DNA from: Armatimonadota bacterium | GTDB taxonomy: Bacteria > Armatimonadota > Fimbriimonadia > Fimbriimonadales > Fimbriimonadaceae | Length of the DNA stretch: 64,000 nt | Assembly (NCBI GenBank): GCA_017303935.1 | Contig: JAFLBD010000001.1 | Coordinates: 744,001-808,000 of the forward strand | Direction: 5' to 3' | Shown: positions 22,657 through 26,409 of the stretch, piece after piece | How positions within the stretch are numbered: the stretch's first letter is position 1 | How the letters are laid out: every line of letters begins with the position of its first letter | Position numbers and translations under genes: made by a program | Notes under the pieces: model-generated | Databases searched by the model: none | What the model was told of the DNA's origin: nothing | Seen by the model: only the letters and a program-made list of their open reading frames with translations

Positions 22657-23343
22657 ATGACAGGGCTGATGGATGCTTTGCCTTTTCCGATCACTCAATC
22701 TGTGCTTGAACGGCTGGGGATTTCGGCATCTGACTCGCAGTGGGCGGAACTCCAGAAGTTTCATGAACGGCTATACGAAGTCAATTTGCAACGAAATCTC
22801 ACCCGAATTCCAGAGATCGAAGCAGACGTTCGACACTATGCCGAATCATTGCTCGTGATGGAGTTCTTAGAAGGGAAGGAGTGGCTGGATATCGGCTGCG
22901 GCCCCGGATTCCCATCGTTTTTGTTAGCGCTGTTTGCTTCAGATTCGCATATTGCCTCGATCGATTCTAACGGGAAGATGATCGGCTTCCTGCGCGAATG
23001 TGGGCTACCCAACAACACGGTTCTCGAAAAGCGGATGGAGGAATGCGGGTTGGTCGAGCAGTTTGATTCTGTGACTGGCAGGGCAGTGGCTCCGCTATCG
23101 ATCCAGTTGGAACTCAGTGCCCGCGCGGTCAAGATGGGTGGGGTCGTGGTGCCTTTCCGTGTCGAAGGGGAGTCCTTTGACCATGCCGCACTCAAAAAGA
23201 TTGGGCTTCAATTGGAGCGCGTCGAAACTCGAACTCTTCCTGATAACCGAATGCGCGTCTTCCCGATTTATCGAAAGGTTGCCAGAACACCGCTCACGTT
23301 CCCGCGAAATTGGGCGGCGATCAAGAAGAAACCACTGTTCTAA
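22657..23343 (+). CDS. rsmG: 16S rRNA (guanine527-N7)-methyltransferase RsmG
   Basis: SAM-dependent methyltransferase of small-subunit rRNA. The 228-residue protein shows the helical N-terminus with NLTRI, the SAM-binding strand WLDIGCGPGFPSFLLAL, the ASIDSNGKMIGFLRE acidic end and the VTGRAVAPLSIQLEL motif of the family. Its TAA interlocks with the TAG of smpB over 4 nt on the opposite strand. Confidence 0.95.
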   Translation: MTGLMDALPFPITQSVLERLGISASDSQWAELQKFHERLYEVNLQRNLTRIPEIEADVRHYAESLLVMEFLEGKEWLDIGCGPGFPSFLLALFASDSHIASIDSNGKMIGFLRECGLPNNTVLEKRMEECGLVEQFDSVTGRAVAPLSIQLELSARAVKMGGVVVPFRVEGESFDHAALKKIGLQLERVETRTLPDNRMRVFPIYRKVARTPLTFPRNWAAIKKKPLF

Positions 23344-23831
23344 TCGCGATAGTCGCCGCGTTGGACACGCGCCGTTTCTCTCTTGGTTTCGCGCTCAGCG
23401 ATTGCGGTCCGCTTGTCGTAGTCTTTCTTGCCGCGACAGAGTCCGAGCAGCAATTTTGCTCGCCCACGATCGTTAAAGTACACCTTCAGTGGAACGAGCG
23501 ATAACCCCTTCTCAAGAGACTTGCGTTCCAAAACCGAAATCTCCTTCCGTTTCGCCAGCAGCTTGCGATCCCTGCGACGCTCAGGCAAAAAGTGGTGTGC
23601 GTAAGCGTACGGCTCGATGTCCATTTGGTACACCCAGAGTTCGTCGTTTTTCACCCGGCAATAGGAGTCTGTAAGGTTCGCCCTGCCTAAAAATAAGCTC
23701 TTCACCTCGCTTCCGCGAAGCTCAATGCCGGTTTCAAGCGTATCTTCCACATGGTAATCAAATGTGGCTCGGCGATTTTGTATGGTTGCCGGACCTTTGG
23801 CCGGTTCATTTTTAGCGGATTTCTTGGCCAT
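23340..23831 (-). CDS. smpB: SsrA-binding protein SmpB
   Basis: Brings tmRNA to stalled ribosomes in trans-translation. The 163-residue protein has the complete barrel: NRRATFDYHVEDTLETGIEL, RGSEVKSLFLGRANLTDSYCR, then PERRRDRKLLAKRKEI, LVPLKVYFNDRGRAKLLLGLCRGKKDYDKR and the basic C-terminal tail. I looked for ssrA (tmRNA) in the adjacent gaps and did not see it; no gap here is long enough. Confidence 0.96.
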   Translation of the reverse strand: MAKKSAKNEPAKGPATIQNRRATFDYHVEDTLETGIELRGSEVKSLFLGRANLTDSYCRVKNDELWVYQMDIEPYAYAHHFLPERRRDRKLLAKRKEISVLERKSLEKGLSLVPLKVYFNDRGRAKLLLGLCRGKKDYDKRTAIAERETKRETARVQRGDYRD

Positions 23832-23879: not shown

Positions 23880-24722
23880 ATGAAAATCAGTTTCAATTGG
23901 ATACCAATCTTGGCGCTCCTCGCTGTGGGTTGCAATTCTGCTCCGAGTCAGGATGGGTCCGCAAGTTCGGGTTCTGCATCAACTTCGAGCTCAACCCCAG
24001 CATTGCAAACGGAACAGGCTTCAGGTGCCGTTTCAGGAGTTGCCACGCTCAAAGAACTCAAGATCACTGACACAAAACCCGGCAAGGGTGATGCCGCCGC
24101 ACCCGGCGATTTGCTCGTGATGCTGTACAAGGGAACGCTTCACGGCGGAACAAAGGCAGAGTTCGACGCAAACATGGACGGCTCAAAACCTCCATTCTCG
24201 TTCATCCTTGGCGCAGGTAATGTGATCGAAGGTTGGGACAAGGGAATGGTTGGACTCAAGGTCGGTGGTAAGCGCACGCTTGAGATTCCGGCAGCGATGG
24301 CTTATGGTGCAGAAGGCCGCCCACCAGCGATTCCAGGCAACTCGGACCTCAAGTTCGAAGTCGAGTTGCTCTATGTTGTCAAGAAAGGTGCCGAAGGCGA
24401 TTACGACGCAAAGGACACCAAGCCCGGATCTGGACCTGCCGCCAAAACTGGCGACAAGGTCAAGGTTCACTACACGGGGATGTTCTTGAACGGCAAAAAG
24501 TTTGACTCCTCTGTTGATCGCGGCCAACCATTCGAGTTCACTCTTGGCAGGGGCGAAGTGATCAAAGGTTGGGACGCGGGAGTCGTAGGAATGCGACCGG
24601 GTGGAAAGCGAACACTGATCATTCCACCAGCCATTGCGTATGGCGAAGATGGCCAAGGCCAGGACATTCCGCCCAATTCAGTGTTGAAATTTGAAATCGA
24701 GCTACTCGAAATCGTGAAATAG
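23880..24722 (+). CDS. FKBP-type peptidyl-prolyl isomerase, two domains, lipoprotein
   Basis: A 280-residue exported foldase. N-terminus MKISFNWIPILALLAVGC with Cys18 as likely lipidated residue, then a Ser-rich linker. FKBP domain 1 (about 60-165: LVMLYKGTLHGGTK, FILGAGNVIEGWDKGM, LEIPAAMAYG) and FKBP domain 2 (about 180-280: VKVHYTGMFLNGKKFDSS, FTLGRGEVIKGWDAGV, LIIPPAIAYG). Domain 2 keeps the canonical active-site aromatic pattern better than domain 1. The ATG follows AAAAGG by 11 nt; upstream in-frame codons read through the smpB promoter area and are not used. Confidence 0.9.
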   Translation: MKISFNWIPILALLAVGCNSAPSQDGSASSGSASTSSSTPALQTEQASGAVSGVATLKELKITDTKPGKGDAAAPGDLLVMLYKGTLHGGTKAEFDANMDGSKPPFSFILGAGNVIEGWDKGMVGLKVGGKRTLEIPAAMAYGAEGRPPAIPGNSDLKFEVELLYVVKKGAEGDYDAKDTKPGSGPAAKTGDKVKVHYTGMFLNGKKFDSSVDRGQPFEFTLGRGEVIKGWDAGVVGMRPGGKRTLIIPPAIAYGEDGQGQDIPPNSVLKFEIELLEIVK

Positions 24723-24759: not shown

Positions 24760-25449
24760 ATGTTTAAGAAACTTGGATTTACTGCCGTTTTGGGCTTGGC
24801 CCTCTTGTCACCGATGGCCACGAAGCCAGCGGATGCCCAAATCACTGCACAAGGCGGTGGATACTTGCTTCGAATCAAGTACGTGAAAGGGCAGACCATG
24901 AAGTACGTCGCGAACATGACGATGGCCCAAATGGGACAGCCGATGCGCATGAATATCGCCAGCAAGGTGTTGGATTACCAAAAGGGAATCGCAACCGTTG
25001 AAGCGAAGGTGACCATCTCTGGTGGTCCATCTAAAACCGCACCAAAGCCGAGCACTTCGACGGTCAAGGTCGATACTCGCGGCCGAGTAGTGGGCGGGGA
25101 TTCTGGAAGCATGGCCGCAACCGGTGGCCCAACTTTGCCAGAAGGACCGGTCAAGATCGGGCAATCTTGGAATGGCACGGTCAAGTCGATGGGCGGCGGC
25201 AACGTCAAGGCAACTTACACTCTCGCCGGCGTGAAGTCGGTCGCTGGTAAGCAAGCTGCAGAAATCACTGTGAAGATGAACGGGGACATGGGCGGAAGCA
25301 AGATGTCTGGGGCAGGTCGAATGATGTTGATGATGGCGGACGGTAGCCTCCTCAACAGCTCGATCAACATGAACTTTACGGTGCCAAGTCAATCCAGTTC
25401 TTCAAAGCCTCAAGTTATGAAGATGTCGATGACGATGCAACGTCAATAA
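24760..25449 (+). CDS. Exported protein, unknown function
   Basis: 229 residues with a clear signal peptide (FKKLGFTAVLGLALLSPMA, then ATKPADAQ as probable cleavage). The mature part is a single beta-rich domain (about 35-220) with many methionines (VANMTMAQMGQPMRMN; RMMLMMADGS), recalling DUF6263-like lipoprotein-type folds, though I cannot confirm that. A run of Ser/Thr/Lys/Pro (KTAPKPSTST) splits it. The stop overlaps the ATG of the ArgC-like gene by one base, so the two are coupled. Confidence 0.6.
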   Translation: MFKKLGFTAVLGLALLSPMATKPADAQITAQGGGYLLRIKYVKGQTMKYVANMTMAQMGQPMRMNIASKVLDYQKGIATVEAKVTISGGPSKTAPKPSTSTVKVDTRGRVVGGDSGSMAATGGPTLPEGPVKIGQSWNGTVKSMGGGNVKATYTLAGVKSVAGKQAAEITVKMNGDMGGSKMSGAGRMMLMMADGSLLNSSINMNFTVPSQSSSSKPQVMKMSMTMQRQ

Positions 25450-26174
25450 TGAGCTCGAGCAAGATCGTTGTAAAAGGATCCTCGTTGGCTGGCTTCAACC
25501 AAGCCGTTAGCGAGCATCCTCAAGTTCAAATGTCCGGTGATTCTGATTCACCGGACATTCATTTTGTCCAGGGCAATTGGGCCCGAACCATCCTGATCGA
25601 TTCCGTCGATTCGGATTGCCGGGGATTGGTCGAACTTATCGACAACAATCCGATGGTCTGCACCGAAGTTTTTGCCTTGCCCGATCCTCTCGGGATTTTG
25701 GGCTCGATCGCCGTGGGTCCTTTGGCCCGAGCCGGACTTATCGTCGAGGAACCCGTCCTGATTGGCAATGTGCCCGGTGAGCTGGACAACCTACATCTTT
25801 TGCTCGCCGATCTCGGATGGGATGGCGGGGTCGCCTATCAGCAAGAACCAGTGGAGACTGGGAGTGCGTACGCACTGACCGCGTTGGTAAAGGTTGAGAC
25901 GCAGGCCGCCGAAGGCCAGATCGAACTGCTCTACCGAGAATGCTTCGAGCGGAGTTTCTTTGTGCGTGAGTCCCAGTCAGAAGATTGGGATACGGCTCTG
26001 GTTTCGGGAAAGCCGTTCGCCATCTATCGAATCCGTATCACGGAAGGAGACCAGCATAGCATTGTTACCGTGCAAGTACTTTCGGATAAGCATGGGAAGT
26101 GCGGTGCTGCGGGTGCAATCCATGCTCTTAACGTGATGGTCGGATTCGAAGAATCCCTTCCGTTTGGAGGCTAG
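25449..26174 (+). CDS. ArgC-like protein lacking catalytic cysteine
   Basis: 241 residues whose C-terminal two thirds follow N-acetyl-gamma-glutamyl-phosphate reductase: GSAYALTALVKVE (strand after the His region), ELLYRECFERSFFVRES (ArgC ELYREFYxxxPFVRV) and GKCGAAGAIHALNVMVGF (ArgC KGAAGxAxxNMNLMxG). The catalytic cysteine segment PGCYPTA is replaced near residue 78-90 by LPDPLGILGSIAVG, and only about 85 residues precede it where ArgC has about 145, so the NADP-binding fold is cut down. It cannot be a normal ArgC. Function unknown. Cotranslated with the exported protein before it. Confidence 0.65.
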   Translation: MSSSKIVVKGSSLAGFNQAVSEHPQVQMSGDSDSPDIHFVQGNWARTILIDSVDSDCRGLVELIDNNPMVCTEVFALPDPLGILGSIAVGPLARAGLIVEEPVLIGNVPGELDNLHLLLADLGWDGGVAYQQEPVETGSAYALTALVKVETQAAEGQIELLYRECFERSFFVRESQSEDWDTALVSGKPFAIYRIRITEGDQHSIVTVQVLSDKHGKCGAAGAIHALNVMVGFEESLPFGG

Positions 26175-26178
26175 CCAG

Positions 26179-26409
26179 TTGGAAGAAGACCCTAGAAAGG
26201 GGAACGGCTGCCTTTTTATCGGCTCAGGGTGCGCTTGCTTTGCCATGGCCGGGATTGTGATCGTCTTAGGCTTGATCCCGTTCATCATGCCGACGAGCAC
26301 TCATTTCACTTCACGCTGGGAATGGCTTTTCGGCGGCCTGGGACTAAACATCTGCTTGGCAATCATCCTCATTGCAGTGGGAATTCGCGTCATTTTTCCT
26401 CGGCAATAG
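26179..26409 (+). CDS. Small two-helix membrane protein
   Basis: I place the start at the TTG that has GGAGG 8 nt upstream; a TTG five codons earlier overlaps the previous gene and has no ribosome site. The 76-residue product has a charged N-terminus MEEDPRKGNG, helix 1 (about 11-35, including GSGCACFAMAGIVIVLGL) and helix 2 (about 50-72, LGLNICLAIILIAVGIRVIF). No family known. It begins 4 nt after the ArgC-like stop and likely closes that operon. Confidence 0.6.
   Translation: MEEDPRKGNGCLFIGSGCACFAMAGIVIVLGLIPFIMPTSTHFTSRWEWLFGGLGLNICLAIILIAVGIRVIFPRQ

Follow-up and report, generated by a model that had tools for sequence, protein, structure and literature searches.

Gene organization of the locus

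The window analyzed here, a stretch of 64,000 nucleotides from an Armatimonadota bacterium of the family Fimbriimonadaceae, harbors at 25449..26174 (+) a gene for a short, catalytically dead ArgC-derived protein of 241 aa, which was characterized through its TIGR01850 match, an AlphaFold2 (AF2) model, PDB matches and its orthologues. The gene is preceded by one for an exported DUF6263-like protein of 229 aa with a signal-peptide-like N-terminus (24760..25449, +; PF19777 and AF2 model), and the two are joined by a TAATG stop/start overlap of the 1-bp kind in the window sequence (25447..25451, +), just as a previous reading of the sequence alone (the sequence-only reading) had described. The usual gene order across the related loci is smpB (−), an FKBP lipoprotein (+), the exported DUF6263-like protein (+) and the short ArgC (+); in the window, smpB, the conserved divergent neighbor, lies at 23340..23831 (−; PF01668, E = 2.3e-51, and synteny), and the FKBP-type peptidyl-prolyl isomerase with a lipoprotein-type signal, present upstream in most loci, at 23880..24722 (+; PF00254, E = 2.7e-65, and synteny).

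Different upstream genes were also observed for some loci: the FKBP gene stands directly before the short ArgC in L045, L053, L060 and L092, an alanine dehydrogenase gene in L051, and a multi-spanning membrane protein in L085, L089, L096, L097 and L104, which belong to bacterial family f5. Those of the upstream membrane proteins of these last five loci that were tested gave no Pfam match, and in L085 and L097 a membrane-anchored protein of 279–281 aa comes before the multi-spanning one. An alanine dehydrogenase gene is found near the exported protein and the short ArgC in about nine loci, such as L042, L048, L049, L069, L072, L094 and L051; about 20 loci carry, downstream of the short ArgC, a gene for a small Zn_ribbon_8 protein together with a uracil-DNA-glycosylase superfamily gene (for example L048:10666-11683); and EF-G adjoins only in the three closest loci.

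On the downstream side of the window gene, an 81-aa ORF with a TTG start and two hydrophobic segments (26164..26409, +) overlaps the short ArgC by 11 bp. It had been counted as a membrane-protein member of the operon, a claim that failed: the ORF stands outside any conserved unit, has no homologue in 66 related loci and, of all the loci compared, occurs in that of this species alone, and it may be either a species-specific gene or no gene.

Relationship of the 241-aa protein to ArgC

The NCBIfam argC model (TIGR01850) matches residues 143–236 of the window protein with E = 9.8e-6, at 25 bits, which is below the curated equivalog cut-off of 233.6 bits, and the same model is matched by 29 of 30 short-ArgC orthologues (best E = 1.7e-11). 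The Pfam family PF22698 (Semialdhyde_dhC_1) gave 12.5 bits for the window protein, under its gathering cut-off of 27 bits, and a best E of 3.9e-4 among the 30 members; a Pfam search with the window protein alone returned nothing significant, and neither Pfam nor NCBIfam has a model whose cut-off the protein exceeds. Searching the PDB by phmmer with the single window sequence yielded chance matches only, so that a profile of the 30 orthologues was needed for PDB sequence matches, and this profile placed LysY/ArgC crystal structures first. In hhalign comparisons with proteins of the same bacterial family, the short family matched the classical, NPGCYPT-bearing ArgC class with E = 6e-14 and two other ArgC classes with 9e-7 and 5e-5, and gave no profile-profile match with Asd.

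The AF2 model of the 241-aa protein (pLDDT 94.4, pTM 0.92) likewise retrieved ArgC and LysY first in a PDB structure search, and VIA-align scored twelve ArgC/LysY entries at Z 20.1–21.2, all of them above GAPDH (17.9 and lower), with ArgC 1vkn at Z 21.2, an rmsd of 2.6 and 228 residues superposed. The sequence-only reading had recognized an ArgC-like fold in the C-terminal part; the claim was borne out by the sequence and structure matches alike, the superposition leading to ArgC and to no different fold. The model further supports an ArgC fold over the full length of the protein, beyond the C-terminus alone, with the dimerization domain included in the superposition on 1vkn. The C-terminal signature helix of ArgC is kept at residues 213–235 (DxxGKCGAAxxxHxxNxMxGxEE; 26085..26153, +), where D213, K217, N228, M230, G232 and E235 of the short family are ArgC heritage, and the C-terminal conservation of the family is thus in part plain inheritance.

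Among known systems, ArgC (TIGR01850; 1vkn, 8afu, 2i3a) shares with the short protein the whole-length fold, the GLxEL segment, the Pro of NPGC, the dimerization domain and the C-terminal K..G..Q....N.M.G..E helix, but it is about 340 aa long, possesses the catalytic Cys, HRH, SGxSGAG and GxxGxxG elements that the short protein lacks, and has no DNNPxVC motif; the short gene, moreover, sits outside any arginine operon. LysY of the LysW lysine/arginine pathway (5ein, 5eio, 2ozp) has the same fold and gave the best PDB sequence match (5ein, E = 3.2e-5), but the losses relative to LysY are the same as those relative to ArgC, and of the ArgC classes present in the same bacterial family it is the classical NPGCYPT one that hhalign favors. 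Asd shares the superfamily fold and is represented in the genome by a separate Asd-like protein. In the tree, the short family forms one clade (support 100/100), set apart by a very long branch of 3.1 changes per column. The tree allows this branch to join either within ArgC or next to it, and the parent subclass is hinted at by the hhalign ranking alone.

Loss of catalytic and cofactor-binding elements

The ArgC segment GLPEL...NPGCYPT pairs gap-free with GLVELIDNNPMVCTEVFALPDPLG of the window protein in the joint alignment, with which hhalign agrees, and within it NPGCYPT is paired without gaps with the ALPDPLG stretch. The LPDPLG remnant (residues 77–82; 25677..25694, +) thus carries Pro78 in the place of the NPGC proline and Pro80 in the place of the catalytic cysteine. 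Not one of 66 homologues has Cys in this column, which holds Pro in 44, Ala in 15 and other residues in 7, and the earlier statement that PGCYPTA is gone is accordingly correct.

Measured against the 339-aa ArgC of a relative, the NADP domain shows three gaps that add up to about 70 residues (14, 30 and 26), which makes the former estimate of about 60 missing residues roughly right, and the catalytic domain lacks a further 31 residues (VSGAGR...GHR in ArgC) at a junction after residue 110 (25776..25781, +). The latter deletion, overlooked by the sequence-only reading, covers the whole SGxSGAG loop as well as the HR of HRH; the third HRH residue is not kept in the 241-aa protein either. The Gly loop GxxGxxG of the NADP domain is not conserved, and the His of the TPH segment of ArgC is replaced in the window protein by Glu133, at a position that is not conserved. 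As the catalytic site of ArgC consists of C149 and HRH (PMC10170137), ArgC chemistry by the 241-aa protein is excluded, judging from its residues.

Distribution and conservation of the short family

A profile search detected the short ArgC in 83 of 113 Fimbriimonadales genomes, all within families f1 and f5, and it was absent from family f2 of the order. Across 291 genomes of the phylum, the whole-length short family scores 100–355 bits, and matches from elsewhere than f1 and f5 reach no more than 48 bits, nearly all of them in frames as long as those of ArgC (about 350 aa or more). A scan of 84,980 species returned 66 loci, titled Fimbriimonadia or unspecified Armatimonadetes, with a few titled Chthonomonas, 'bacterium' or other bin names. 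The short family was thus not found outside Fimbriimonadales in the 291 phylum genomes or the 84,980-species scan, nor was a description of it found in open-access papers. As far as searched, it is an enzyme-derived pseudoenzyme family specific to one bacterial order.

A motif that ArgC does not have, DNNPxVC, is encoded in the window as DNNPMVC (residues 65–71; 25641..25661, +); the equivalent region of ArgC, the segment after GLPEL, contains no such motif. Apart from x, it is invariant in all 66 homologues, which were collected by a DNNP-type pattern scan so that the invariance there is partly selection, and in all 30 members of a pattern-free set. Glu62, Asp65, Asn66, Asn67 and Cys71 are each invariant in 66 of 66 homologues, and 65 of the 66 have His225, at a position that Gln occupies in ArgC. 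The 22 invariant columns among the 30 members, together with the orthologues in 83 of 113 genomes, show at the sequence level that purifying selection acts on the short family.

Probable re-use of the ArgC fold

The dead catalytic site, the conserved family and the missing arginine genes support a re-use of the ArgC fold for work other than semialdehyde chemistry, as the sequence-only reading had proposed; the regulatory or structural role that it suggested would be plausible. The account that we favor, with a probability that we put at about one half, is that of an exapted pseudo-dehydrogenase, non-catalytic and acting by binding a ligand or partner. An ArgC-type N-acetyl-gamma-glutamyl-phosphate reductase would have been converted into it once, in the Fimbriimonadales lineage. 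The sequence shows what was lost on the way from ArgC, namely the catalytic Cys, HRH as the substrate motif, the SGxSGAG loop and a large part of the half that binds NADP; sequence and model show that the ArgC dimerization domain and the C-terminal helix were retained. The gains are His225 and an invariant helix with DNNPxVC that follows the GLxEL segment. Given its fold and the missing signal sequence, the protein is presumably cytoplasmic, and with the dimerization domain retained it is probably dimeric. The remodeled site would bind a small ligand or a protein without redox chemistry, and the amount of the protein would be tied by translational coupling to the preceding gene, mostly that of the DUF6263-like protein, on which the short ArgC would not depend. 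Such a family is a clear-cut example of how an enzyme of amino-acid biosynthesis can be stripped of catalysis and yet be strongly selected across an order, even in members without the pathway.

The (near-)invariant polar residues, about ten in number (E62, D65, N66, N67, C71, K217, H225, N228, E234 and E235), are a large number for a protein that serves as nothing but a scaffold, and a new active site would account for them too. A neofunctionalized enzyme, in which the DNNPxVC helix (Cys71, Asp65, Asn66, Asn67) and His225 would form an NADP-free active site for a different reaction, is the main rival account, possible but less probable than the favored one: the invariance of these residues and of Glu62, and the fact that DNNPxVC is not an ArgC inheritance, speak for it, but the gene has no metabolic neighborhood save the alanine dehydrogenase of about nine loci. 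With similar tentativeness, the ArgC fold could have been rebuilt by means of DNNPxVC and His225 into a new enzyme or sensor, serving a near-core, envelope-linked function of Fimbriimonadales that is not known from other bacteria. The invariant DNNPxVC makes the new role directly testable.

The exported neighbor and its coupling to the short ArgC

The exported protein of the window matches PF19777 (DUF6263) with E = 3.3e-4 at 20.8 bits, the gathering cut-off being 26.7 bits, and 21 of its 33 homologues match the same family with E values of 0.01 or lower (best 5.4e-9). The protein is one of a larger family, of which a genome has several paralogues. Its AF2 model (pLDDT 87.6) is a predicted soluble beta-barrel or half-barrel, whose structure matches include a YmcC-like exported protein (Z 12.7), mycobacterial LmcA (Z about 10), the lipid-binding domains of lipovitellin and ApoB and outer-membrane barrels, with LolA and LolB lower. 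That it carries a hydrophobic ligand in the periplasm would be a reasonable guess, no more. Only four residues are invariant throughout the exported family; one of them, Gln27, comes just past the AxA-like site and may be the first residue of the mature protein.

In 60 of 83 genomes the gene immediately before the short ArgC encodes a homologue of the exported protein. Of 51 adjacent pairs whose junction was determined to the nucleotide, 35 have an overlap of the 4-bp kind (ATGA or GTGA) and 3, the window included, one of the 1-bp kind (TAATG or TGATG). The coupling noted previously is hence conserved, but it is not obligatory, since each gene occurs without the other, the exported protein without a short ArgC in G009 and G035 and the short ArgC without the exported protein next door in L045, L051, L053, L060 and L092; a specific functional partnership is for this reason no more than possible. 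The same observations bear on the explanation that the short ArgC is a cytoplasmic escort or assembly factor for the coupled exported beta-barrel protein, which would account for the frequent adjacency and 4-bp overlaps but is unlikely, as either gene exists alone and as the upstream place is also held by the multi-spanning membrane proteins of family f5 or, in L051, by alanine dehydrogenase.

Arginine synthesis in the host and its relatives

The genome of the window (2.56 Mb in 4 contigs, 99% complete) contains no true argC elsewhere, the sole other match being the Asd-like protein at C1:954012-954983; argB and argJ gave no match, and argG and argH gave sub-cut-off matches only, as expected from related superfamilies. 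The organism is therefore a predicted arginine auxotroph, and, as two genus mates tested also lack argC, argJ and argH, the auxotrophy is predicted from gene content to be genus-wide. Arginine auxotrophy in Fimbriimonadaceae was not found described in the open-access literature, and in the F. ginsengisoli genome paper 'arginine' appears solely within 'twin-arginine'. If it were annotated with relaxed thresholds, the short protein would be named ArgC, and a step of the pathway would then be ascribed by mistake to arginine auxotrophs.

Among the 59 genomes of the bacterial family that were classed for both genes, the short ArgC is kept by 38 of the 43 that have a true ArgC and by 12 of the 16 that have none (Fisher p = 0.24), and its retention does not track ArgC. 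This independence speaks against a prozyme-like regulatory subunit of true ArgC, an analogy suggested by trypanosomatids, in which a dead paralogue regulates deoxyhypusine synthase (PMC3663545). Both are enzyme folds without activity, and a true ArgC is also present in most short-ArgC genomes and the dimerization domain is kept; the deoxyhypusine synthase subunit, however, activates a living paralogue, whereas the window genome has none, and as 12 ArgC-less genomes, the window's included, keep the short protein, such a role is very improbable.

There is next to no chance that the 241-aa protein is itself a working N-acetyl-gamma-glutamyl-phosphate reductase and the argC of this genome. No ArgC-like sequence other than this protein and Asd exists there, and the absence of another argC, which the sequence-only reading had paired with complementation of an argC mutant as an objection to its own proposal, is thus real; but the Cys, HRH and SGAG loop are gone and the NADP domain is truncated, and with argB, argG, argH and argJ missing too the gene cannot serve an arginine pathway. 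A decaying pseudogene, which truncation and catalytic death might suggest, is refuted by a frame that is open, full-length and syntenic in most of the 83 genomes and by the 22 invariant columns.

A separate situation was observed in two genomes, G007 and G013, which encode a true ArgC of a separate class (HPGCF) and an argH-like gene, without argJ, and which perhaps use a LysW-type or ArgE-type route to arginine.
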